The translations under genes and the position numbers were made by a program. The notes beneath the pieces were generated by a model that ran no database searches, was not told where the DNA came from, and worked only from the letters and a program-made list of their open reading frames with translations. Below are positions 28,081 to 49,653 of a DNA stretch of 49,653 bases, one piece after another (the stretch's first letter is position 1; every line of letters begins with the position of its first letter). The DNA lies in NCBI GenBank assembly GCA_027577595.1, contig JANBRJ010000113.1:1-49653 (forward strand). The letters run 5' to 3'. The stretch is from Coemansia sp. RSA 487. Lineage: Eukaryota; Kickxellomycota; Kickxellomycetes; Kickxellales; Kickxellaceae.

Positions 28081-31000
28081 ATGGAGCTTGTTCACAATGC
28101 AAGTGAAGGCACCAAGCTTTTGGCGTAAGTATATCTACCTGCTGTAAATTCTGCTTTCCCGTACACTTTGTTTGTTGCAAATTCAACTGTCCCTAATAGC
28201 CAAAAGCTGTCTGCTTTATCGTCTATTTGGTATTCTTTGACTATGTAGTGCGACTCCTGCCCACAAAAACAACGCGTCAGACTTGCCGAACAGTGAGCAG
28301 CGTACGCCTTCACCAGAGCGCGTCCCACCCCCGCCTGCTTATAGTCACCACAGCTCTTCGGATGTGAAAGAAGAGCCGCCGTTCCGGGACGGCCAGGAAG
28401 ACAAGGCCGACGATGACTGCAGCGATATCGAAGGTGTAGACGTAACGGAGCGCGCACTCAGCGGCTTTGAAAGCCTCGATAAGAACATATTTGTCAGCGC
28501 TACAAATGAAGGCAGAAAGCACGAGGAGGTAATTCCCTGTCACTGCCACTACAACCCCGAAAGAGATTCGCGCGATCAAGCGTGTGGTGAGACGTCTGAC
28601 TGCTTCAACCGCCTTATACAAATGGAGTGCAATCCTCTGACATGCCCTTGCGGGAGCTACTGCCTCAACCGGCGGTTCCAGAAGCACCAGTACGCAAAGG
28701 TGCGGATCATCGATGCTGGGCGCAAGGGAAACGGAATGCAGGCGCTGGAGGACCTGGATACTGGCAGCTTCATTATGGAGTACATGGGCGAGATGGTGAC
28801 TGCTGCAGAGTTCCGCAAGCGCACACGCGTGTACCAGTCGGAAGGGATCCAGCACCACTATTTTATGGGCATTGGTAACGGAAATATCATCGATGCCACG
28901 CGCAAGGGCTGTATTGCCCGGTTTATCAACCACAGCTGCAGTCCAAACTGTGTGCTCCAAAAGTGGATGGTTGGCGGGGCTATTCGACTGGGCATCTTTG
29001 TCGAGCGGCCAATTAAGCGCGGCGAGGAGATCACTTTTGACTACAAGTTTGAGCGGATCGCTGGATCCGAGCCTCAGCCGTGCTATTGTGGTGCACCCGA
29101 GTGCAAAGGGATAATTGGAGTTGCCAAAGAGCGCTCTAAGAAGGGTGCTCATGACATCAATAGCGGCGACGATGCCGATGAAGATGTAGCCGGCTTTATT
29201 AACGAGGAGATCGAAGATAGCACCGTCACACGCCATCAGCGCGACAATATCCGGCGGCGACATGCTGCCATGGACGATGACGACGAGTACGACGGAAGTA
29301 GTGATGAGGACGAGTATTCGGGCTCTGACGACGATGGGCGTAGCTCTGGCAATGAAGCTGCTGGCTTTAAGCACATTCGCCAGCGGGCGCGCCAGAAGAA
29401 GATGAAGAAGAAGAAAGGGCTCACATCTCCAGAGCAGGTGCTCAAATTCGTCCAGATTATGCACCGCTCAGCGCGCCAGACCCGTATCATCGAGATTCTT
29501 ATAGACAAGCTGATGGAGACGGTCGACAAACGTCTTTTGAAGTCGCTCATTGGGCTTCAAGGAGCAGGAATACTGTGTTCGTGGCTGCAGGACTACGAGG
29601 GCGACGATGTAATGATGATCAAGATTCTGCAGTGTATATCACAAATGCCGATTTCCACCAGAAATACAATCGAAGAGACACGTCTGGAGGATACCATCAA
29701 GCCCTTGTGTAGCTACAGCGACGAAAATGTTGCAAACTTGGCTTCGGAGCTGATTGACCGCTGGTCGTCGCTGCGGCATGTATTCAAAATTCCCAAAAAG
29801 GCCCGCAAGCGCTCTACATCGACTACACCGGCCCCTGGAACTCCAGCAGCGTCGTCTAAGCTGAGCCCGAACCGCAAAAATACTGACACCCCGCCCGTCC
29901 CCGTCCACCACAACCAAAATGCCGGCGGTTCATTTGTTCTCGCGAAAGAAGGAGGCGGAAGAGGCTTTGGCGCTGCAACTCCGGACATTGATCCCTCTGT
30001 GCCACCGCGCTGGCGCCACAACAGCTATCGGCCAGCAACAAACTACCTGCCTTCGCGCATGCGGTCTGCATCGCCGTCGCCCAGCCTGGATGCTGGCATG
30101 CCACAGGGGACACAGGGATACGCGGCATATGGCTCGAATGGCGAAGGAGAAAGAAGAGGTCTGGATCGTAGTAGTACTGGGTACCACCGCTACGGACATT
30201 CGCCAAGTGATCCGCTCCGCATGAGTCGACCACCAGTGAGAGAGTCACTATATTCGGGCCACAGGTCACGCTACGAGCAGCCAGTGTCGCGGTCGCGCTC
30301 ACGGTCCCGTTCGCCTAATGGGCTGCGTCGCACAGCATCGTCATACTCGCGGTTCTCGCGCTTTTCGGGTAACGACGATGCACAGGGTTCTGGTCGCGTG
30401 TATGGGCAGTACGATTCATACAGCAACAGCCCGTCACACAGGGAATCGCGAAGAGACTACAGTGGCCTGCGGTCCGAGATGTCACCCTCGTCGTCCTTCC
30501 AGCGAGGCAAGTACTCGAGCTGGGCCGGCCACTTTTCATACCGCCAAGGTGCTGATGAAAGGGCATATTCCATGGACACTGATCGTGACAATAGAGGAAG
30601 TAGCTCCTATGAACGAAGTAGCGCATCAAGAATTCGTTCAAGCAGCGGGAGCGATGCCATTGGAAAAGCATACCCACCAAACGCAGCGCAGACGACTGAC
30701 ATGAAGCTGGCTCCTGGGTGGAAAACAGCGCAGTCAGACGATGGGAGGGTGTACTATTACCATGAGGTAACCAAAAAGCCCCAATGGGAGCCGCCGCTTG
30801 CAGACCCAGAACCGTACGCACCCTCAGCTGCTAGTACGCAAACTAACGGCGCGCCTTACGACCAGCGCAGCAGTCTTGGGATTGCGGAACACCAAAGGCA
30901 GTACAATCGACAGCAGCATGGCCGAACTGGCGAACCCAATGGCCACGCTTTGCCAAGCATGCAATCGCCATCGTCTATGGAGGGCGATAAGGCCAACGGA

Positions 31001-31618
31001 TTTTCCAGGACAAAGGTTGATGAGATCATTGAGCGCGCGCTGCGCATGGGCATGATTTCCTCGTCGTCGGCTCAAGGAACACCGAGTGCTTCTGCTTCTT
31101 CGACAACGCCAAACACGCAGCTAGTCACGCCAGAAACTGACGGTGAGCCCACTGCAATGGGAGGAGGAGGCGTGCGGGCGAATGTGCAAATGTCAACGTA
31201 TGCCCCTGGTGGCAGTGGGAAGACCGGTAGCTCGCGCAAGGTATCAGCGTCGTCGGTGTCGTCATCGGCAGGGGCTGTGCCACCGGCAAAGCGCGAAAAG
31301 CTGGAGAAGAAGGCCACATCAGAGCTGGCAGCGTTTGTTGTGCGCGCCATGAGCAAGTACAAGGGTCAGTTGGGCCACGAGGAGTTCAAGCACGAGGCAC
31401 GCAAGATTACAAAGGTTCTTATGGAGAAAGAGCGCAAGGCTGCTGGGTTCGACCCACACAAGCTGATAGAGCTGAGCCAACACAAAAAGACAAAGATCAG
31501 GCAGTTCATTGCCGACTACGTAAACAGGCTTATCGACAGACAGCAGTCACCGTCGTTGTCGGCAGCACTCGAGGGCTCAGCGGGAGGAACGAGTGACAAA
31601 CCTTCAGATCACGTCTAA
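28081..31618 (+). CDS. SET2: Histone H3K36 methyltransferase SET2, two exons
   Basis: Exon 1 is only 44 bases (28081-28124, MELVHNASEGTKLL), the intron is 28125-28248 (GTAAGT...TATGTAG), and exon 2 is 28249-31618, giving 1137 residues. Without the short exon the frame would lack an ATG start, since the main frame opens through TTG. Domains in order: AWS zinc-binding block (about 105-155, CHCHYN...CNPLTCPCGSYC), SET (about 158-275) with RFINHSC and GEEITFDY, post-SET with CYCGAPECKG, a TFIIS-N-like helical segment after an acidic linker, a long RS/SP-rich disordered stretch, a WW domain (about 835-865, GWKTAQ...YYYHEVTKKPQWEPP) and a C-terminal SRI domain that binds phosphorylated Pol II CTD. 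This is the full Set2 architecture. It marks H3K36 in transcribed genes. Confidence 0.93.
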
Positions 31619-34905: not shown

Positions 34906-35816
34906 GATACCATTCTCTCCTTTCTCTAGCACATAGACAGACTTGCATTTTTCTTATTATTATTTTCTGTATACTACACATGTTCTTATTCTGCAATAAT
35001 AGCCTCTACATGTTTCAACAGAATTAGCATATATTCACACAATAGATGTAAGGAAGGAAAACGTACAATAAGGTAAACAAAAGAAGGAAGCGGAGCTGAA
35101 TGAAATCCCGTCAAGGATCCAGAACTTTATTCTTTTTGAAAGTTGTGTTGTGCTACAGTGGTAAGACGATGTTTTTGATCGTGGTTCAGCAAAGAGGCAG
35201 CAAGCAGCGTGGTTGCAAATGATGGAAAACAGCGCAGGCATTATTGCACAAAGCCAAATACCAAGAAACATCATAGAAGGTCCAAAGAAAACGATCTGGC
35301 AGTGTTTACACAGGACAACCATACAAACGCTACAACTGTATTTGTTAAAAGGCACGAGATAACGATAAAGAAAGCAACATCTGCAGAGCATAGCTACTGA
35401 GCTAGCATCTGCTGGTGGATGGCGTGCCGGGTAGAAAACAAGTGGGCCTTCCATATGAGCGATAGTACAGTGGGTAGCCAATGTTTTTTCTGCTCAACCT
35501 TTAAATACTAGTCCATTCTCTCTAGCTTCTTTTATTTTATAAAACAATTCATACTTGCCGTTTCTGCAAACGTTGGATGTTTATCATATCGTGGTGTCAT
35601 GTCATGGGTAAAAGAAGCAATAAATGCACTGAAAGTAAATAAAAACATTGGCTCACCACTTTAACTTTTCTTACTTTGACCAGGAATATCTTTCTCTTTT
35701 CAGTTTATGCTCTGATGTGTAGACCAACATTGTTCTAGTGATCTGCCTTTCTTCAAAAAAAGTATTAACGACATATAATTGAAAGTGGAAGAAAGTTGTT
35801 TAAAGGCTACTACTCG
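34906..35816. other. Intergenic region carrying repeat copy A
   Basis: Between the convergent SANT-like and Clr4-like genes. Its middle is filled by a 364-base repeat (35297-35660) that recurs inverted at 39.3-39.7 kb. The part from 34906 to 35296 holds no recognisable gene. Confidence 0.5.
35297..35660 (-). repeat. Dispersed repeat, copy A
   Basis: This stretch, read on the minus strand, matches 39317-39687 on the plus strand over its whole length. The half toward 35300 is the better conserved, roughly nine in ten bases by eye. Differences include single-base and two-base indels that break any shared frame, so the repeat is not conserved as coding sequence. Inside, the phrase CAGTGGGTAGCCAATG (35468-35483) faces AACATTGGCTCACCACT (35644-35660) as an inverted repeat. 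That gives a MITE-like subunit of about 195 bases. I cannot name the family. Confidence 0.8.
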
Positions 35817-36932
35817 CTAGGCGAATATATAGCCGCGACAGAGAGGCGATCCACACTGGCACCTAAATGTAGAGACATCAGGGATTGTGGTCTCTGTGTT
35901 GGATTCCAAGGGCATAGACGGGTTGTAGTCAAAGTTGAGCTCCTCACCAACCGCAATATCTCGCAATGCAAAGAACGCCAGCTCATGGAGCCTGGGGTCC
36001 AGATGGTTGATGTAGACGCTCCAGATGCCCATATTGGGCTCGCACGAGTGGTTGAAGAAGTGGGACACGTTGCCGTACTGCCTGGCGTCAATAGTGAAAC
36101 ACGAGTTCTTTCCATACGCGACCTCCTTATCCAGATCAAACAGATATGAGGTGTTCGTCTTCTCCAGGTTCTCGGACTCCTCAAACGACATCAGCTTGCC
36201 TGTGTAGCGGCAGATGTACTCGCCCTTGCGGATCTTCTTGCGCGTAACGACGCCCCAGCCCTTGGATGACGTGCGGTAGATGTCCATTTCAATCGGATTG
36301 CCACGCTGGACGACGCGGTTCGGGCAGTCGATGGAGCACGCGCACGCGTCGCTGCACTCGATGATGCACTGCAGATGCTCCGTACACAGGAGCCCGTCCT
36401 CGTCGTAGTATGGCACTTGCATGCACTCGCACTCGGAGCCGCATTGGCCACCCATGCATGAGCACGGGAACATGACGGTGGACGGGTGCGGCACCGCTTG
36501 CGTGCACACGTACCCATCGACGTACGTAAAGTTGCGTGGCACCTTTACATTATCCACTGTATTGATCAGTCGGATCTTGTGGTGCGCTGGACAGTCCCAC
36601 AGCTTGGTTACGTCGATCCCTGAGGTGTAGGTCTGCCGCTCCTTGACTCTTGCATTGCTAGCCTTCCGCTGTTTGTAAAGGGCCACTATATCGGGGCAGT
36701 CCAGGTTCTCTTCGGGCTCCCATGTGTTGTCCTCGGACCCGTAGCCTTTCCATTTCAGAAAGTAGTACTGCTTCCCGTGGATACGCTGCTCATCGACGAT
36801 CTCCTCAACCTCGTATTCTTCTTCTTCTTGGTATTCTTCGTCTTCTTCTTCGTCTTCTTCTTCCTCCTCCTCGTCCTCTTCGTCGTGGTAGTCATATTTG
36901 GCTACATTGTCGGCTAGTTCTTGGGCTTTCAT
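35817..36932 (-). CDS. H3K9 methyltransferase, Clr4/SUV39 type
   Basis: I choose the Met of [10 protein letters not shown] at 36932, giving 371 residues; the frame is open to a Met at 36986, which would add 18 basic residues. Domains in order: an acidic Glu/Asp tract (about 17-40), a chromodomain (about 40-87, [10 protein letters not shown]...FLKWKGY...TWEPEENL), a pre-SET zinc-binding region rich in Cys ([14 protein letters not shown] to [10 protein letters not shown]), SET with [18 protein letters not shown] and ELNFDY, and post-[13 protein letters not shown] at the extreme C terminus. Chromodomain plus pre-SET/SET/post-SET is the Clr4/SUV39H architecture: it writes and reads H3K9 methylation to build heterochromatin. 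Length is normal and no intron is seen. Confidence 0.92.
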
Positions 36933-37927
36933 TGTCCTTCTCGATTCTCTCATTCTTGGGCAAGGCTTCAAAGATACTTGAGGCAATTCTTACCCTTCCG
37001 CGTACGTATGTGTATGCGTTTGTGTGGCTTGTTCAACAGTTCAATGGCTTGTTCGGATATTGCGTTGGGAGTGAGGAAATTAACGAGGTGCAGAGACCAT
37101 GGTCTCAAAAAAGTACAAAATAATATGATGATTGTGATCCAAAAGAAGCAAGATGGATGCTATTGAGCTGGCAAAGTGCGGTTTTTTTTTGCGATACAAA
37201 AGCACAGGGGAAATTAGTAAGCAGTTTATGGAAACCTGTCAGTGGATGCAAAAAAGTTACTGACTCCCTCCTCCTTCTCAGGATCCGAATTCTGGTTCCT
37301 GGAATCAACAAAAAATAAATAAATAAACCCTGGCCGTGAACTTTTTTCCACACTCATTTTTGTTTTTTGCCTTTTCAGTTCTGCAAGCCAGAAATCGCTC
37401 CCTGAAATACTTTCCACAACACTGCTGGCGATCGCTTTCATATGTCTCCAAAAGTGGAAAAAGGAAACCCTGACACCTTTTTTCTCTTGCCACACAAAAG
37501 TGTAACACGTCAATTTGCACACCCCTGCAAAGTTCCTAAAGCAGCCCAAAGACTTCATGGTCTCGTTTTCTTTCTCTCTTTCTCCTTTTCACAACTGTAC
37601 CTTTTGCAATCCTCCTTTTCTCACTCACACACACACTCTCTCTCCCTCTCGCATCTCTGTCATCCTGCTCCGCACATCTATTCTGTACTGTTACATCTCC
37701 ACTTTTCCGTCCGTAAAAGGTTGCCCATTTCTACCTGGGAGCCATCGCTTTTTCTCTATTGTACCTTTTATATTGTCATAAAGAAAACAAAAGCTTAAAA
37801 GAGGGGCTGGCCATTATTGTATTTTAATAGATATTGTATAAACGCTGCTGCTTTTTTTTACTCCACTACACCTTTCTCCTCTTTTCCTTTCTTTACCAAT
37901 TTCTTTGTACAGTTTGTAATTTGGTTA
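36933..37927. promoter_or_regulatory. Divergent promoter of Clr4-like gene and ERF4, pyrimidine-rich
   Basis: About 1 kb between two divergent starts. Before ERF4 the plus strand is strongly pyrimidine-rich with CT and CA runs (for example 37560-37660) and a tail of T runs to 37915. Such CT-blocks precede several starts in this window and are common in fungal core promoters. No gene is seen inside. Confidence 0.4.
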
Positions 37928-39310
37928 ATGTCGGGTGATAGTTCGTCAGAGCATTGGTCCTTTGAGAACCTTACTCACAGCATAGATTCCTCGGGACGCC
38001 CACTCGCAGCAACAGCAGCCGCCGACCTGCCGCCCAAACACCAGCAGCAAAACCCACCACTCTCGCTTGTTCTCCGCAATCCCTATAGCACTAGCAGCAA
38101 CAGCAGCAACACACCGATAGGACGCAACAGCTCCACGACAATTCGGTCGCCCAGTGCTGGCAGTATCCACGCAACCCGTCTACACCGGCAGCAGCGCAAG
38201 TACATTTCGCAGCAGCGCCCCGATTCGTTCTCGTCCGAGACCTTTTCACTCAATTACAGCGAACACAATTCAAAACAGCATTTGTTGTACTCGCAGGCGT
38301 CGCAGAACAGCATGTACGCTACAGAAAACACAAGCGGGCCCCAGATGCCTGCGTCGCCAACGTCGTCTGGCAGCCCGGGCATGCATCCAGCGCAGGCGTC
38401 GATGCACAGCGACCGCGCGGTGTTTGTGCCCAGCCGCCAACCGGAAATCAGCCCATCGTTTTCGGGTGGCGCAGCAGGTGTGCATAATCTGCGCATGTAC
38501 AGCAGCGCCAGCCCACCGCCTCCGCAACTGCCCCCGCCGGCGGCCGCCCACATGCGGCTATCGGACGACACCAACGACAGCAGGCGACGACAACCAAACA
38601 GCATTGTGCCGCTGTCTGGCCCGCGAGGCCAGAGCGCACAGGGCCGCCCACGCAGCAGCAGCATATACCCGAACCGCAAAAACAGCAGCGCTCGTGCTGC
38701 CGCAGTGCCTGTGGGGCAGCGAGGCAGTGCCGCCGGCGCACCTGACAGCATGACCAACGTGTTCTTTCCGCGCGCTGCTGCCTCTACCACCAGCAGACCC
38801 ACGTCTCACGAGCAGGGCAGCGACAACGATCCGCTGGCACGCAAGCGATACGATATCCCAGCCACAGGAGATGACGGACCGCCGCCTATCCATGTCTCGA
38901 GTATCCCGCGACAATGGCAGCGTGTGCGTATAGAGCGCGACTACTCGCACGGCGTGGCGCGGCAGTTCTCGCTGACAGTGCCAACACAGCTGGGCGTGCG
39001 TGTCGACGAGCACCGGTTCAAGCGGTTTGTGCGCCGGATAAACCTCATGCTCAAGGAGGCTGAGGAATCGACGCTGCGCAATGTCGCCGAGGGCTGTCTG
39101 GCGTTTGCGACGCTCTATCTGTCGACCCTGGTCATCAAGCCGCATTTTAACAAAACCTTGGACCGGATATCAAAATTCGTCGAAGCGGAAAACAAGACTG
39201 TCTTCCGTCCTGCTGGTCTGATGGTCATTGATCCCAGGCAGACTGCGTTCATGTTTATAGAGGTCCTGTTGTTGGACCACAGTGGTGACCCAATGCTTTT
39301 TCGCTTTTAA
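37928..39310 (+). CDS. ERF4: Ras palmitoyltransferase subunit ERF4 (GOLGA7 domain)
   Basis: I start at the Met of MSGDSSSEHW (460 residues); the open frame upstream to 37817 encodes a hydrophobic leader with no family match. The first ~320 residues are disordered, rich in Ser, Gln, Pro and Ala. The C-terminal part (about 325-450) is the ERF4/GOLGA7 domain: VRIERDYSHGVARQFSL, then PTQLGVRVDEHRFKRFV, INLMLKEAEESTLRNVAEGCLAF, and NKTVFRPAGLMVIDPR. Erf4 forms the ER-bound palmitoyltransferase with the DHHC protein Erf2 and acts on Ras in yeast. The final ten residues (HSGDPMLFRF) and the stop fall inside a partial copy of the dispersed repeat, so the native C terminus may have been replaced. Confidence 0.85.
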   Translation: MSGDSSSEHWSFENLTHSIDSSGRPLAATAAADLPPKHQQQNPPLSLVLRNPYSTSSNSSNTPIGRNSSTTIRSPSAGSIHATRLHRQQRKYISQQRPDSFSSETFSLNYSEHNSKQHLLYSQASQNSMYATENTSGPQMPASPTSSGSPGMHPAQASMHSDRAVFVPSRQPEISPSFSGGAAGVHNLRMYSSASPPPPQLPPPAAAHMRLSDDTNDSRRRQPNSIVPLSGPRGQSAQGRPRSSSIYPNRKNSSARAAAVPVGQRGSAAGAPDSMTNVFFPRAAASTTSRPTSHEQGSDNDPLARKRYDIPATGDDGPPPIHVSSIPRQWQRVRIERDYSHGVARQFSLTVPTQLGVRVDEHRFKRFVRRINLMLKEAEESTLRNVAEGCLAFATLYLSTLVIKPHFNKTLDRISKFVEAENKTVFRPAGLMVIDPRQTAFMFIEVLLLDHSGDPMLFRF

Positions 39311-39315
39311 TACAG
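39281..39315 (+). repeat. Partial tandem copy of the repeat end
   Basis: AGTGGTGACCCAATGC and the T-run after it repeat, with changes, as CAGTGAGCCAATGC with its T-run directly downstream (39316-39349). The first unit encodes the last residues and stop of ERF4; the second is the start of repeat copy B. Confidence 0.65.
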
Positions 39316-39316
39316 C

Positions 39317-39687
39317 AGTGAGCCAATGCTTTTTTACTTTCAATACATTTACTGTTTCCTTTACTCGTGGAATGGCACCAAGGCGTGCTAAACTTGTAGC
39401 GTTTGTAGAAACAACAAGTATGCGTTGTTGTCTTTTGTTGTTTTATAGAATAAAAAAACTAGAGAGAATGGACTAGTATTTAAAGTCTGAGCAGAAAAAA
39501 CATTGGCTACCCACTGTACTATCGCTCATATGGAAGGCCCACTTGTTTTCTATCCAGCACACCCATCCACCGGCAGGTGCTAGCTCAGTAGCTGTGTTCT
39601 GTAGATGTTGCTTTCTTTATCGTCATCGTGCCTTTTAACAAATACAGTTGTAGCATTTGTATGGTTGTCCTGTGTAGATGCTGCCAG
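39317..39687 (+). repeat. Dispersed repeat, copy B
   Basis: The inverted partner of 35297-35660. It begins AGTGAGCCAATGC, includes the inward-facing phrase CATTGGCTACCCACTG at 39501-39516, and ends near CTGCCAG. It contains TAGCTCAGTAG at 39581-39591, which fits the Pol III A-box pattern, but I find no B box at the right distance, so a SINE label is not justified. Copy B lies immediately after ERF4 and about 600 bases before the Fanzor start. Confidence 0.8.
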
Positions 39688-40285
39688 TGTAACTTATTCT
39701 TGGTTGAAGTGTGGCGTAGATTAGATTTATTAGCTTGCAAAACAAACGACATGGAAAGATCAAAGAAAACTGACAAAAAACAAGAATGCATAAAATATGA
39801 TGACAAAAGAGAGAGCAAGCAAACATCAGTTAACAGAAATAGAAGGGAGCACTAGTGTCTGAAGAGAGAATAGGAGATGATTACAACAGACAGAAAACGA
39901 AGTGTTGATAACAGTTAAAAACGAGAAAGAAAAAGAAGCATTGAAAAGGAAAGCGTGTTTGTTGAGGGCATTTGTACTTCTGCCGTATTGCATCTGCTTC
40001 TCCCTCGATGTGTGCTGCGAAAAATAAATACAATCTGATAAAAGAATACAATCTGATAAAAAGAAAATGAAATATATCTACGAAAAATAATCGAGAAACA
40101 AAAAAACGGATGGGAGAGAAGAGCTTACCTTCCTATCGCAAGAATAAAAAGCTATATTCCCCTAGTAAGTAGCTACAAAGAATAGAAAATACTTTTCCTT
40201 GTATTGCAGCTACATTTTCTTATTATTTATTAAACCTACAAAATCTCATAACCTCATTTTTTCCTTTTGTTTCAACACATTTCCG
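39688..40285. other. AT-rich leader of the Fanzor gene
   Basis: About 600 AT-rich bases between repeat copy B and the Fanzor start. It holds an 18-base tandem duplication (AATACAATCTGATAAAAG at 40027-40044, repeated at 40045-40063). It should contain the Fanzor promoter and perhaps the element's left end, but I cannot see an end signal. Confidence 0.4.
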
Positions 40286-42514
40286 ATGACACGCAACGAC
40301 GAGGTGTGTGTTGTCAAGGTTCCTTTGCAGGCTGTCAGCTGGCGCCGCAAATACCGACCGCCCCTTCGAAAGTTTGTCAAAACAACAAACCACAACACTC
40401 GCCATTCTTATAACTTTTCTCGCTGGATATTTATATACGAGCTTCGTGAGGACATTGATTTCAAGCTTGGCCGCTATGTCTGTGTTCCCTTTTTCAGGGA
40501 GGTCATCTTGAAAGTCAATGGTGGAAAAACTGTAGCTGTTGGCAGTGCGCGGAAAAAGACAAAGAAACCTAAAGCAGAAGCAGAAGATGACCAGCCAGAT
40601 ACTACTGAGTTTCGAGCCCTCATAGCAAAACACTGGGATACATATGCACAGGCGTCGCATATCAAGCAACAAAAGCAGCCATACACGGCTCAAGTCGCTG
40701 CATACAAAGCCCAAAAGATACATACTGCGTTCGTTGTCTCTGTTAAAAACAGTCTCGGAAATCGCCTACGTGGAGCTGTCAACATGCTCTGTAGATCTAA
40801 AGCTGAAGCACTTGCCAAGCGGATCGAACTCAAGGCTGCTGGCGCATCAGCTGATACTATCCGAGATACCCTAAGAGCTGAGGTGTGGGGCCCAACAGAC
40901 AAGGCCAAAAAATGTGTTGAGCATGGCAAGATTGTTGAAGCTGAGCTAGATGCACACATTTACGAACGGATCAAGGAACTTCAATCAGTACTCTACATCT
41001 ACGAAAATGATGCGCCTAGCGAAAAGGGTCTCTACTATGACATCAAGTGTGACCCTGTCAAGCACGTCAAAACCTTCTTTCTTCTGGCTCGGTTCTTCCA
41101 GCAAAACAAGTCCCGCAGTTTCCAGTGCATGCCACTTCGCACACAGTGGATCCCATGCCATGTCCACATTGATAAGACTATCCTTTGTCAATGGTTCCTT
41201 GGTGGCACCAAGAAGGGACAGAAGCTTACAAATGACCTTTGGGGTGAGGTTTTTGACATAAACTGCTGGGCAGTCAAGAGCAAGCAGGGTGGCAAGGTTT
41301 TTGAAGGCTCAGTTCAGACAGATGGTGTGTCAATCTCTATTCTCAAGAAGTGCAAGGCCAAGAAGAAAACCAGCAACAGCACAGACCAGACCAGCGGCAT
41401 CAAGACATCTGACACTGCCAATACTGCCAGTACTGCTAAGACCAAGACACCAAAGACCAAGAAGGGCAAGAGCAAAGATGAATTCGAGTTTGAGTACATT
41501 GAGTCAATCGACCAAGACAGGCTATGTGTAATGGAAGGCAGCTGTGTGCTGATTGACCCAGGCAGGAGGGATCTCCTGTTCTGCATGCATGAGTACAGCT
41601 CCATTGGGAACCCATGGCTATTCCGGTTTACGCGCAATCACAAGGCCAAGCTGACTCGCTCTACCAAGTTCCGCAAGATCCTCGAAGCTGCCAAGAAGAT
41701 GTACCCTGACAATGCCATCATCAAGGCAGAGCAGCGTCTGGCTGAGGTTTCATGCATCACTGTTAATCCTGATCGGTTCAAGAGGTTCATTGAGGTCCAG
41801 GCTGAGGTGTGGCCCCTTCTGAGCAAGTTCTATTCCTGCACGCAGACAAACAGCACAACGAATAAGAAACCGCTTCATCGGCAGCTGCGTCTGGCAGCCT
41901 ATCTTAACAGCCAAAGGGCAGATCATACCCTTGCCAACCTTATCCGTGAACAGTTTGGCCCTGATCCTGTTCTGGTTCTTGGAAACTGGTCTGCTGCCAT
42001 GTGCAAGTACCATGAGCCCATCCGGGGTGTAGGCATGCGTAGGATGTTGCGAAAGCATGGGTTCGAAGTGTACCTGTTGGAAGAATTCCATACCTCGACT
42101 TTCTGCCCTGGTTGTTGCGAAGACAGGCTTGTGCATCCTGAAGAGCTGGTTCCAAACCCAAGGCCCTATCCGAAAGAGAATAGGCGTGAGTATGTTATTT
42201 GCCATGGACTCCTAATGTGTCAAAACAAAAAATGTGTGGAGCATGTGGCAGATAGCATGAAGCCTGCTAACCATCTTGGGAAAGAGCCTGTTGCTCGGTT
42301 TTGGAACAGAGATCTTGCTGCTGTATTGAATTTCAGGCATATCCTCCATAGTCTGCGCCAAACACATGAGAGGCCTGAGCGTTTTAGGCGTGGTACCGCT
42401 CTTCCACCAGCAACGAACACCAAGAAACCCGCGAGAGGCACCAAGAGGTCTGCCGGTGGCTCTGCACAGCCCAGAAAGAAGTCCCGTTCAGCGACATCGC
42501 AGCAGCAGCCTTAA
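40286..42514 (+). CDS. Fanzor, TnpB-like RNA-guided nuclease (copy 1)
   Basis: I start at the Met of MTRNDEVCVV (742 residues); an open 29-residue extension upstream looks like translated leader. The C-terminal half is a split RuvC nuclease: RuvC-I IDPGRRDLL (D424), the RuvC-II strand VLVLGNWSAAM where N567 stands near the canonical Glu position, LLEEFHTSTFCPGC with E599/E600 just before the zinc ribbon (C607, C610 with C645, C650), and RuvC-III FWNRDLAAVLNF (D676). This order is that of TnpB and its eukaryotic descendants, the Fanzors, and Glu relocation next to the zinc ribbon is known for Fanzors. A Lys/Arg-rich tail holds a bipartite nuclear signal (KRSAGGSAQPRKKSR, 720-734). The frame is uninterrupted and intronless, so it looks intact. 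A low-complexity Lys/Thr/Ser insert (about 355-395) precedes RuvC-I. Family members cut DNA under guidance of a 3'-encoded RNA. Confidence 0.9.
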   Translation: MTRNDEVCVVKVPLQAVSWRRKYRPPLRKFVKTTNHNTRHSYNFSRWIFIYELREDIDFKLGRYVCVPFFREVILKVNGGKTVAVGSARKKTKKPKAEAEDDQPDTTEFRALIAKHWDTYAQASHIKQQKQPYTAQVAAYKAQKIHTAFVVSVKNSLGNRLRGAVNMLCRSKAEALAKRIELKAAGASADTIRDTLRAEVWGPTDKAKKCVEHGKIVEAELDAHIYERIKELQSVLYIYENDAPSEKGLYYDIKCDPVKHVKTFFLLARFFQQNKSRSFQCMPLRTQWIPCHVHIDKTILCQWFLGGTKKGQKLTNDLWGEVFDINCWAVKSKQGGKVFEGSVQTDGVSISILKKCKAKKKTSNSTDQTSGIKTSDTANTASTAKTKTPKTKKGKSKDEFEFEYIESIDQDRLCVMEGSCVLIDPGRRDLLFCMHEYSSIGNPWLFRFTRNHKAKLTRSTKFRKILEAAKKMYPDNAIIKAEQRLAEVSCITVNPDRFKRFIEVQAEVWPLLSKFYSCTQTNSTTNKKPLHRQLRLAAYLNSQRADHTLANLIREQFGPDPVLVLGNWSAAMCKYHEPIRGVGMRRMLRKHGFEVYLLEEFHTSTFCPGCCEDRLVHPEELVPNPRPYPKENRREYVICHGLLMCQNKKCVEHVADSMKPANHLGKEPVARFWNRDLAAVLNFRHILHSLRQTHERPERFRRGTALPPATNTKKPARGTKRSAGGSAQPRKKSRSATSQQQP

Positions 42515-42576
42515 CATCAACCATATTTTTCCCTGGGTGCTATAGCACTCCAACTGCCCAGAGCCGTTCTGGGCAG
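42515..42576 (+). ncRNA. Candidate Fanzor guide-RNA scaffold / right-end structure
   Basis: After the Fanzor stop come 26 bases, then TATAGC (42541-42546) at the heart of the palindrome GTGCTATAGCAC (42537-42548), then 7 bases later a perfect 9-base hairpin CTGCCCAGA-GCCGT-TCTGGGCAG (42554-42576). The second Fanzor in the window has TATAGC at exactly the same 26-base spacing and its own hairpin after it. In TnpB and Fanzor systems the guide RNA scaffold comes from the region overlapping or following the 3' end of the gene. Calling this the scaffold is inference; the structures and spacing are seen directly. Confidence 0.45.
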
Positions 42577-42875
42577 AAATTAATGCCAGATACAAGGCTT
42601 CGGTTGCCATATGTTAGTACTAATCGGAAGTCCTTGGCAGGTAAATTTTTCATGTTTTGCGATGTGTGTATGTGTTTTTTTGCCTGTATTTGCCTTTGCG
42701 TTGCTTGTTTGACCTTTTTACTAACCGCTTGTGTTTTCTCTTTTTTCTTTGGGCCTCCTATCGTTTTTCGTGGTCTTTGGGCTTTATCCAATAACGCTTA
42801 AAAAGACTTGGTAGATATTCGAACAAAATTTTTTCTTTTTTTTATCCAATTAGTTTTTTTTGCTGTACTGGAAAA
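42577..42875. other. Spacer between Fanzor and PAK-like gene
   Basis: About 300 bases, T-rich toward the right. The Fanzor element's right boundary should lie here or at the hairpin. No gene seen. Confidence 0.4.
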
Positions 42876-44984
42876 CTACATCTCATCGAGGTCGGATTCC
42901 TCGTCATCGCATTCAAGGGACTCAACCTGGTGAACAAAGTCGAGCATCAGCTGCGCGCACTGAGCCGAATCTGGAGACATCACAGACTCGTGCTTGCGCA
43001 GACGGGAGGCGGGTGGACGATCTGCAGGGGCGATGGATGTGCACAGCAGCATCAGCTCGACCAGCTTGGGGTCGCAGGCATCGGGGTTGCTGAGCTCTGG
43101 CATCCCGTTGGCGCTGGCCAGCTCCAGCACCTTGATATCCGGGTACTCGATGTACGGCGGCTGGCCCTCGAGCATCTCGTAAATAAGCGCACCGGCCGCC
43201 CACACGTCGGTTGTCGATGAGTACCCAGAGCCCTTGGCCAACTCGGGCGCCATCCAGTAGATTGCGCCGAGCGACGTTTTCTGCACAGACGTCTGGTCCA
43301 AATCCAAGTACACTGCACTGCTAAAGTCCGCCAGCTTGACCTGGCCCTTTTCGTCGATCAGCACGTTGTCGCTGCGCACGTCGCAGTGGATAATGTGCCG
43401 CTCGTGCAGATACGCCAGCGCAGTCAGCACCTCGTGCATGGCGTACGAGATGGCCACGTCGGGCATGCGGATTTCTGGGTACCCGACCAGCAGATCGGTG
43501 ATCGACCCGCGACTCATGAACTCGTACACGATCCACACCGAGTCGTCGATCGAAAAGTACTCGTAGAACCGCACAATGTGCTGCGACCGGATGCGACGCA
43601 AGATCTTCAGCTCCGTGCGCAGCTTGCGGTACCGCGCCTTGGCCGCCTTGGGCACGATCTTGATTGCTGCGTACTCGCCCTTCGGGTGCTTGCTGGTTGC
43701 CGTTCTGCGCATTGCAATGTAGACGTTGCCATACTCGCCCTCGGCGTACTCCTCGAGCTCGCCGTAGTTCTCCCGCCGCTTCTTCGACGATTTGCCCGAT
43801 GACCCCCCTGCTGCAGCATCACCATGTCTGCTGGTGGGCTTGTCCAAATCGCGCTCGCTGCCCAGCATGCGGAACGAGTTTGTCTGGCTCTCAGGCGTGC
43901 TCGTCAGCGAGAGAAGCGTATCGTTGTTGGCTGCTGCCTTCTTGGCCGCCTTGTTTGCCAGCGCCATCATCTCGGCCTTGCTGGGCATCAGGTTGTTCTC
44001 GGGCATGTCCTCGGGCTTCATTGAATGCAGCGTAACAGGTGTCTTGGAAAACCGCTTGGCTGTCATTGCAAACCCAATGGTCGACACGACGCGCGACTTG
44101 CGCTTGATCCACTTGCGCTCGTTCTCCCCTCCACCCTGCGCTGCTGTCTTGGTGCTGGCTCTATTGCTGCGGATATTCATGCGGCTGGGCTTGTCGTCCT
44201 GGGCTTCACCAGCGTCCTGAGCAGCATTTGCAGCAGCCCTTGCGTTAGCCCGTGAAGCGGCGTCCTCATCCTCGTTGTTCCATCCGTTGGCGGAGCCGTG
44301 GTCCGAGCCACCATGGCTCACAATGCGCGCAGACGCCGACTGCGGCGTATCGGGCATATTGAGCTCAGTGCCTGCGGTACCCAACGGCGTGGTGTCTCCT
44401 TCCTGGTCGCTAGTAATGGGAACTGACGTCCGCTTTGACACCATCGAGGGCATCATCACCTCTGCTGAGGCATGTGACAGGCGCACGCCACGGCTGCCAA
44501 CGAGCACTCCGGACGAATGGCCCGACGCGGTCCGCTGCTTCCGGAACATCGCTTGCATGTTCCCCTCGGATGGGCTGGCAACAGACACAATGTGCGGCAA
44601 CCAGCCCGGCGAATCGGGGTAGCTGCCGCCTGGCCCGCCCCTTGCGAGGCTGGCGCGCGCCATGTGCGCAGTGAGCTTCATGTCCTCGACATCGGCGCTG
44701 TGCGGGCGGTTGGACGTCATTTGCTCGTAGATGGGCGTCGATGGGCTGCTTCCAGGGTCGTCGTGCGTGTCCGACGACCGGTGCTCGGACATTGGCGAGC
44801 GTGCCGGGCTGATATATGGTTTCCATGTGTCGGGCACCTGATGCATTATGTCGTCCAGGTCCTCGACGCTGATATGCACATCGTGTTGGACGTTGAAGGG
44901 CGAGCTTATCTGCCGTACTTTGGAGATACCAGCCTTGGCTAGTAGTCCGTGCAGCAGTGGAACGCCGGCCGTGTTGACCATCAT
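42876..44984 (-). CDS. PAK-like kinase with N-terminal CRIB and altered catalytic motifs
   Basis: A 702-residue frame. A CRIB/p21-binding motif lies near the N terminus (about 26-55, ISSPFNVQHDVHISVEDL...PDTWKPY), then a disordered Ser/Pro/Ala region, then a kinase domain (about 408-680). The late C lobe reads GQPPYIEYPDIKVLELAS and NGMPELSNP, which is PAK/STE20 wording. The ATP lysine is present (AAIKIV). Three motifs differ from active PAKs: the glycine loop is AEGEYGNVY, lacking the first Gly; the catalytic loop is HCDVRSDN (about 532) instead of HRDLKxxN, so the HRD Arg is Cys and the Lys is Arg; and DFG is DFS (about 552). The Asp residues remain. It could be a weak kinase or a Cdc42/Rac-regulated pseudokinase. 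It has its own CT-rich upstream region. Confidence 0.8.
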   Translation of the reverse strand: MMVNTAGVPLLHGLLAKAGISKVRQISSPFNVQHDVHISVEDLDDIMHQVPDTWKPYISPARSPMSEHRSSDTHDDPGSSPSTPIYEQMTSNRPHSADVEDMKLTAHMARASLARGGPGGSYPDSPGWLPHIVSVASPSEGNMQAMFRKQRTASGHSSGVLVGSRGVRLSHASAEVMMPSMVSKRTSVPITSDQEGDTTPLGTAGTELNMPDTPQSASARIVSHGGSDHGSANGWNNEDEDAASRANARAAANAAQDAGEAQDDKPSRMNIRSNRASTKTAAQGGGENERKWIKRKSRVVSTIGFAMTAKRFSKTPVTLHSMKPEDMPENNLMPSKAEMMALANKAAKKAAANNDTLLSLTSTPESQTNSFRMLGSERDLDKPTSRHGDAAAGGSSGKSSKKRRENYGELEEYAEGEYGNVYIAMRRTATSKHPKGEYAAIKIVPKAAKARYRKLRTELKILRRIRSQHIVRFYEYFSIDDSVWIVYEFMSRGSITDLLVGYPEIRMPDVAISYAMHEVLTALAYLHERHIIHCDVRSDNVLIDEKGQVKLADFSSAVYLDLDQTSVQKTSLGAIYWMAPELAKGSGYSSTTDVWAAGALIYEMLEGQPPYIEYPDIKVLELASANGMPELSNPDACDPKLVELMLLCTSIAPADRPPASRLRKHESVMSPDSAQCAQLMLDFVHQVESLECDDEESDLDEM

Positions 44985-49410: not shown

Positions 49411-49653
49411 TTATTTGTTTGTCCTTGTTGTCTTTGGCGCAATTGTCTTCCTTTTCTTCTTGGGCTGCTGTTCATCGGTGGTAGCAACAGCTGCAGGTCG
49501 ACTGCGACGGAAGCGCTCTGGAGTCTCACCATGATCGCGAAGGCCATGGAAAATATGTCTGAAATTGAGAACGGCGGCGAGATCTCGGTTGTACATGCGT
49601 GAACGAGGAGTCAAAACACCATCCACTTCCACGGGCCCCATACATAGTTCGTT
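49411..49653 (-). CDS. Second Fanzor, C-terminal end only (cut by window edge)
   Basis: The visible 80 residues include the RuvC-III block MYNRDLAAVLNFRHIFHGL with its catalytic Asp, then PERFRR as in copy 1, and a basic tail with a monopartite nuclear signal PKKKRK. The frame is open through the edge of the window, so the gene continues to the right; the Met at 49641 is internal, not the start. Compared with copy 1 the RuvC-III block is nearly identical, but the tail differs in sequence and length, and the residues before RuvC-III align poorly. So it is a related, older or separately acquired copy rather than a recent duplicate. It lies in convergent orientation, about 6.9 kb from copy 1. 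Confidence 0.8.
   Translation of the reverse strand, partial: NELCMGPVEVDGVLTPRSRMYNRDLAAVLNFRHIFHGLRDHGETPERFRRSRPAAVATTDEQQPKKKRKTIAPKTTRTNK

Follow-up and report, generated by a model that had tools for sequence, protein, structure and literature searches.

Fanzors are a known kind of eukaryotic RNA-guided DNA-cutting enzyme, and several of the elements that carry them have been characterized. SPu-1 of Spizellomyces punctatus is a single-ORF Fanzor1 element with terminal inverted repeats (TIRs), putative TA duplications, and ghosts (PMC10432273, PMC3627910), ghost elements being the name given to its gene-less copies (PMC10432273). Metal coordination in its protein SpuFz1 (PDB 8gkh) involves E541, D383, N385, and D606 (PMC10432273). 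The Tc/mariner Fanzor1 elements of the PUl-4 type contain Fanzor as their only gene and display mariner TIRs together with TA duplications, the latter being described as a hallmark of mariner elements (PMC3627910). Fanzor1 from Parasitella parasitica (PpFz1), whose structure has been solved (PDB 9cf0-9cf3; PMC11423790), carries within RuvC a cyclophilin-binding insertion, the FRI domain, which its authors report from Parasitella and Rhizopus only (PMC11423790). Two Fanzor fingerprints, a DPG motif and a glutamate six residues ahead of the zinc finger, have also been put forward, and TIR and TSD sequence is predicted to form part of the guide RNAs of Fanzor1 (PMC10711439).

We examine here a 49,653-nucleotide stretch of DNA (the window) from Coemansia sp. 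RSA 487 (GCA_027577595.1, contig JANBRJ010000113.1). The window harbors a genuine, apparently intact Fanzor1, an additional member of the already known Fanzor class. The locus is, with good probability, a non-autonomous Tc/mariner-like Fanzor1 element from a multicopy family, with its nuclease gene intact and its right end decayed.

Identity and Active Site of the Fanzor1 Protein

The Fanzor1 gene occupies 40286-42514 on the forward strand and encodes 742 amino acids without a stop codon, with 13-53 stops in each of the five other frames. The uninterrupted 742-residue gene claimed in an earlier, sequence-only reading of this DNA is thereby confirmed by translation. The mechanical ORF opens at TTG 40199 and its first ATG is at 40286; because similarity to PpFz1 sets in at residue 5, ATG 40286 is the likely start. 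A phmmer search retrieved PpFz1 as the best PDB match (E 9.7e-101, stretches 5-526 and 531-702), well beyond chance, and SpuFz1 as a further match (E 3e-39). The sole remaining PDB row, a Mu-like prophage chain with an E-value of 0.8, was set aside as a chance hit. A profile built from three sequences recovered Guillardia theta Fanzor1 (GtFz1) at 8.8e-09. By homology to these characterized proteins, the product of 40286-42514 is a Fanzor1, in agreement with the identity first proposed for it. Scanning with Pfam left the protein unrecognized, yielding just one subthreshold tudor row (E 0.08), and scanning with NCBIfam returned 0 families.

Sequence identity is 37% over the PpFz1 fragments compared and 31% over the SpuFz1 fragment compared. 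The protein resembles PpFz1 in displaying the same order of RuvC and zinc-ribbon parts, the DPG motif, the alternative glutamate, and RD, and alignment to PpFz1 places the REC and WED portions upstream of the RuvC/zinc parts. It differs in lacking the ~100-residue FRI insertion: the alignment passes from 526 to 531 in the query and from 991 to 1096 in the PpFz1 chain, skipping chain residues 992-1095. It differs also in its lysine-rich stretch at ~355-395, which is longer than that of PpFz1.

The complete split-RuvC and zinc-ribbon order with intact RuvC residues, as originally described, is borne out residue by residue: D424-P425-G426, E599, E600, T603-S604, C607, C610, C645, C650, R675, and D676 are all present. 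When the published pattern is rendered as D-X(125,275)-[TS][TS]-X-X-C4-X(5,50)-RD, it yields a match ending at D676; the script starts it at D346, the first fitting Asp, and D424, 178 residues before T603, fits too. In a three-row alignment with PpFz1 and SpuFz1, D424 (RuvC I), E600 (RuvC II), and D676 (RuvC III) form invariant columns. E600 is the aligned catalytic glutamate because it is invariant, whereas the E599 column is Asp in both relatives; from the pair E599/E600 previously named as catalytic, only the second residue is thus retained. The triad aligns with D383/E541/D606 of SpuFz1 (counted back from D606 in the phmmer alignment), and SpuFz1 N385 has no like residue here, the query presenting G426 and PpFz1 also Gly. 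Both fingerprints are found, DPG as D424-P425-G426 in RuvC I and the alternative glutamate as E600, six residues up to C607. The C4 zinc ribbon (C607, C610, C645, and C650) is followed by R675-D676 in RuvC III. A single-sequence AlphaFold model of the protein was discarded, given its mean pLDDT of 34.9, and the catalytic geometry therefore rests on alignment to the solved relatives, from which D424, E600, and D676 are predicted to cluster. The basic C-terminal cluster RKK at 730 could be a nuclear localization signal, as a motif guess.

Element Ends and a Gene-Less Copy

Comparison of the whole window with itself revealed that both flanks of the gene match one place on the opposite strand. Positions 39318-39687 align with 35656-35296 (83.7% over 375 columns, E 1.3e-110), and 42743-42797 align with 35291-35238 (80% over 55 columns, E 2.7e-5). 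The right-flank match was absent from the filtered list when 39200-42900 was used as the query and reappeared at E 2.0e-6 once the low-complexity filter was turned off; none of 500 shuffles reached its score. At the second site the two flank targets are only 4 bases apart and keep their order, with 3,055 bp between them in the gene copy, and 35156-35661 is therefore the same element without its inside. This ghost element spans 506 bp on the reverse strand, with a left-end region at 35661-35296 and a right-end region at 35291-35238, and contains neither the Fanzor gene nor the candidate omega-RNA described below. Copies of TA flank it at 35154-35155 and 35662-35663.

The left end of the gene-bearing copy (39311-39344, forward strand) consists of TA at 39311-39312 followed by the left terminal inverted repeat (CAGCAGTGAGCCAATGCTTTTT). 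Immediately outside lies a tandem 33-bp duplicate of this repeat (CAGTGGTGACCCAATGCTTTTT; 39279-39312, forward strand). The left-end region common to the ghost covers 39311-39687 on the forward strand, with 45 mismatches in 363 aligned columns and five gaps, and its full alignment opens exactly at TA, 39311-39312 against 35663-35662. Its right-end counterpart, 42743-42797 on the same strand, has 10 mismatches in 54 aligned columns and one gap. An inverted version of the left terminal sequence, (C/A)AGTGGTGAGCCAATGTTTTT, closes the ghost at its far end (35156), where the right terminal repeat occupies 35156-35176 with TA outside. The two ghost TIRs agree at 19 of 23 letters including the TA, a figure equalled by one of 500 shuffles. 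Allowing up to three mismatches, the terminal motif occurs seven times in the window against 0.81 expected; six of these matches fall in the gene copy and the ghost, and the seventh (11528) is unrelated. A CAGTG start is typical of mariner elements. On the strength of ends shared with a TA-flanked, TIR-bounded ghost, the Fanzor1 gene is judged to belong to a transposable element.

An inner inverted copy of the terminal repeat is found ~200 bp inside the left end of both copies, at 39501-39516 in the gene copy (reverse strand, followed by TA to 39518) and at 35468-35483 in the ghost. The outer left end (39313-39516, 204 bp; 35468-35661, 194 bp) constitutes a separate TA-flanked TIR unit in the gene copy as well as in the ghost, as though a small mariner-type MITE had been nested at, or fused to, the left end of the Fanzor element. 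Literature combining Fanzor with miniature inverted-repeat elements was searched for and none was found. Across 39491-39550 the gene copy equals the ghost at 60 of 60 positions, compared with 49/55 and 51/59 in the adjoining blocks and 38/52 further out; gene conversion or constraint is a possible cause.

No right terminal repeat was recognizable in the gene copy between 42797 and the kinase ORF (stop codon 42876-42878). The tail of the gene copy matched the ghost tail no better than chance (173 of 500 shuffles as high), and the same was true against the inverse of its own left repeat (119/500) and of the ghost's left repeat (299/500). A TA and a TIR are seen at both ends of the ghost, but at the left end alone of the gene copy. 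The gene copy looks truncated or eroded at its right end, though it might instead represent a family branch with different right ends. A separate scan of the ORF flanks had proposed an A-rich 24-nt TIR pair at 39761 and 42751 (score 14, best of 20 shuffles 12.5), which was rejected as low-complexity, without target duplication, and off the ghost ends.

The resemblance to SPu-1 extends to ~500-bp gene-less ghosts, a TA target, TIRs, and a single ORF, but in the Coemansia locus the gene copy lacks a recognizable right TIR. Likewise, the Fanzor-only content, mariner TIRs, and TA duplications correspond to elements of the PUl-4 type, whereas no transposase-bearing partner element is found among the 26 ORFs scanned in this window.

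A Second Fanzor Gene

A tblastn comparison of Fanzor1 with the window detected a match at 49608-49504 on the reverse strand, identical at 25 of 35 residues in the vicinity of RuvC III (E 8.9e-11); the remaining rows, self-match aside, had E-values above 1. The match belongs to the 3′ end of a second Fanzor gene (49411-49653, reverse strand), comprising its last 80 codons and cut at the window end. The frame is open from the window end to the TAA stop codon at 49413-49411 and encodes a lysine-rich tail, as in the first gene. Judged from its sequence, this is a different, diverged gene extending beyond the window. It lies ~7 kb from the first, and at least two Fanzor genes and one ghost thus fall within 50 kb. 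The presence of the second gene means that the genome holds a Fanzor family.

The two Fanzor genes have a 3′ noncoding block in common, located at 42702-42756 on the forward strand around ACTAAYC...TTGTGTTTTCTCTT, with its partner at 49276-49215. Its score of 44 was reached by 0 of 300 shuffles, the best of which scored 34, and the block (55-62 nt) overlaps the region common to the ghost. Neither the ghost right end nor a TIR was detected on the 3′ side of the second gene (215, 190, 266, and 236 of 300 shuffles as high). TACTAAT and TACTAAC occur in the 3′ region of the first gene (42613-42640; 42717-42724), the second of them inside the shared block; both resemble intron branch points.

A Candidate Guide RNA

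Directly downstream of the Fanzor1 stop codon, positions 42533-42641 on the forward strand comprise a candidate omega-RNA scaffold, in which two stem-loops (42535-42551; 42554-42576) are followed by a third, imperfect one reaching ~42640. In sliding folds, nine 110-nt windows with starts between 42470 and 42550 gave z-scores of -2.2 to -4.4, the strongest being 42510-42619 (-4.38), and no window starting beyond 42550 fell below -1.3. For control, 150 random windows gave a minimum z-score of -2.78, with 1.3% below -2.5. With another tool, a 121-nt fold had a z-score of -2.72 (2 of 200 shuffles as good), and a wider 201-nt fold was unremarkable (-1.40; 19 of 200). The 9-bp stem-loop at 42554-42576, 40 nt past the stop codon, is the only perfect stem of at least 9 bp with a loop of 3-8 nt in the window, a feature not rare in itself because 10 random sequences of like composition had 0-5 each. 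The right end of the ghost is unstructured (z-scores of -0.42 and 0.23). The second Fanzor gene displays a weaker fold signal directly after its stop codon, the best of 31 windows having a z-score of -2.55.

A noncoding RNA region following the stop codon, here a candidate, is a further likeness to SPu-1, and the omega-RNAs of SpuFz1 and PpFz1 occupy a similar position and possess two compact stem-loops as described in PMC10432273 and PMC11423790. The SPu-1 ghosts retain a related structured region, whereas the ghost found here is without one. In the layout predicted for Fanzor1, the omega-RNA takes in the TIR and TSD, with the guide lying past them, whereas here the structured stretch ends ~100 nt short of the right-end region shared with the ghost and the gene copy shows no right TIR. 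Given its position and fold, the stretch is a candidate for the guide-RNA scaffold of this Fanzor1. Rfam returned no matches, either across the entire window or, at E-values up to 1, within 42450-42880, and no tRNA genes were found. A search of the window for guide targets gave seven exact or one-mismatch 15-mer matches to 42600-42884, none of them convincing; one (42728 against 49237) sits in the block common to both Fanzor genes. A weak direct similarity also connects 39682-39713, at the ghost breakpoint, with 42635-42668, where the structured RNA stretch finishes, but 56 of 300 shuffles scored as high and the similarity is not significant.

Genomic Neighborhood

No transposase was identified among 26 window ORFs scanned with Pfam, including all 21 of at least 200 amino acids; the scan covers unspliced, complete ORFs. 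The proposal that no transposase gene adjoins the Fanzor gene stands within that set, and a non-autonomous Tc/mariner-like element need not encode a DDE transposase itself. The left neighbor is an Erf4-domain ORF (37817-39310) that ends inside the duplicated terminal repeat, and 39279-39310 of this transposon sequence encodes the last residues and stop codon of the ORF. On the right, a convergent ORF encodes a protein kinase and weakly matches PBD. The ghost is ~155 bp behind a chromo/Pre-SET/SET ORF (35820-36986, Clr4/SUV39-like), and a Set2-like histone methyltransferase ORF (28283-31615) shares this 50 kb with the transposon copies. With PpFz1 as the closest relative of the Fanzor, these Erf4, chromo/Pre-SET/SET, and Set2-like neighbors fit the fungal locus that had been suggested. 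For the host Nup192 and Utp10 proteins, chains named Nup205 and HEATR1 are better matches than the Nup192 and Utp10 chains. We take the chains named Nup205 and HEATR1 to be vertebrate, and such matches might be expected of an early-diverging fungus, though they are no proof of it.

Relatives were also sought in sequence collections. In viral contigs, the protein query gave three pattern stretches and the alignment query 49, with 0 confirmed in either case; in genome contigs, the corresponding counts were 12 and 120, again with 0 confirmed; and tblastn of Fanzor1 against phage records gave no match. A 25-base TIR pattern had 0 exact matches in viral contigs. As the viral, genome, and phage collections are without fungal genomes, these negatives say little about fungi.

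Proposed Mechanism and Alternative Histories

The gene is not stand-alone, being enclosed by the ends of a TIR element that has a deleted copy 4 kb away. The sequence-only reading had offered a stand-alone element or a domesticated gene; in view of the TA-flanked ghost and the second Fanzor gene, that choice is not supported. Under the Tc/mariner-like reading, the Fanzor1 gene would be borne by a TA-target, short-TIR, non-autonomous DNA transposon and would be one of at least two Fanzors in the genome. Its protein is expected to bind an omega-RNA made directly downstream of its own stop codon, and the RuvC site (D424, E600, and D676) would then cut matching double-stranded DNA beside a short adjacent motif. 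In the usual model, cleavage of the emptied donor site may aid persistence of the element. To move, the element would need a transposase encoded at another site, and the 506-bp ghost would be an internal-deletion derivative within the same family. With its left end kept but its right terminal repeat eroded or gone, the gene copy has probably ceased to be mobile. Several results weigh against this reading: the 26 ORFs scanned contain no transposase, the gene copy has no recognizable right TIR, the structured stretch stops before the right-end region, the right end of the ghost is unstructured, the wider 201-nt fold is unremarkable, and the 3′ side of the second gene is mildly structured at best and carries neither the ghost right end nor a TIR.

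The strongest competing history, which we nevertheless regard as unlikely, is that of a recently dead, nonfunctional remnant with a frame open by chance, no omega-RNA, and no expression. The unrecognizable right end is what such a remnant would be expected to show, but the catalytic, zinc, and fingerprint residues are all intact and a structured RNA candidate is present.

Insertion of a Fanzor segment (~39688-42742) into a pre-existing ghost-like TIR element, with the ghost as the empty site, is a doubtful alternative that would explain why the ghost regions are 4 bases apart where the gene copy holds 3,055 bp. The ends of the segment, however, display no significant inverted or direct repeat (92 and 56 of 300 shuffles as high, respectively), the ghost junction has 4 additional bases resembling deletion filler, and the block common to the second Fanzor gene (42702-42756) crosses position 42742.

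Retention by the host is an improbable history, in which the right end and mobility were lost, selection keeps the gene as a domesticated Fanzor, and the guide is fixed in its own 3′ region rather than derived from the site of insertion. It draws on the intact 742-codon frame beside an undetectable right terminal repeat and on the location of both the structured stretch and the block common to the second gene within the element ends. Between the gene copy and the ghost, the shared flanks show 55 differences over 417 aligned positions and six gaps. Under unselected drift at 7%, half of this divergence, a frame still open would hardly be expected (P 0.005 for no stop and 4e-8 for no frameshift); at 2%, the values are 0.287 and 0.008. 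At 1%, however, they are 0.485 and 0.088, making the intact frame unremarkable, and the divergence between the two copies may predate both insertions. These figures do not separate recent decay from host retention, since the outcome depends on how long ago this copy was stranded. Moreover, a mobile family is favored by the second Fanzor gene, 7 kb distant, which together with the ghost, all within 50 kb, lowers the odds of a uniquely retained host gene.

Implications

The locus adds an intact Fanzor1 that is close to the structurally solved PpFz1, is without the cyclophilin-binding insertion, and sits in an element whose ends are mapped in part; beside it are a sister copy devoid of the gene and, 7 kb off, a second Fanzor gene. 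The presence of an intact gene where the element seems to be missing one end raises the question of whether a Fanzor may still work with a fixed guide once its transposon has died. The boldest proposition, that this Fanzor1 has outlived its transposon, with its right end gone, the gene under selection, and the guide fixed in its own 3′ region rather than taken from the site of insertion, is a long shot. If true, the locus would encode an RNA-guided nuclease kept by its eukaryotic host and aimed at a constant target.
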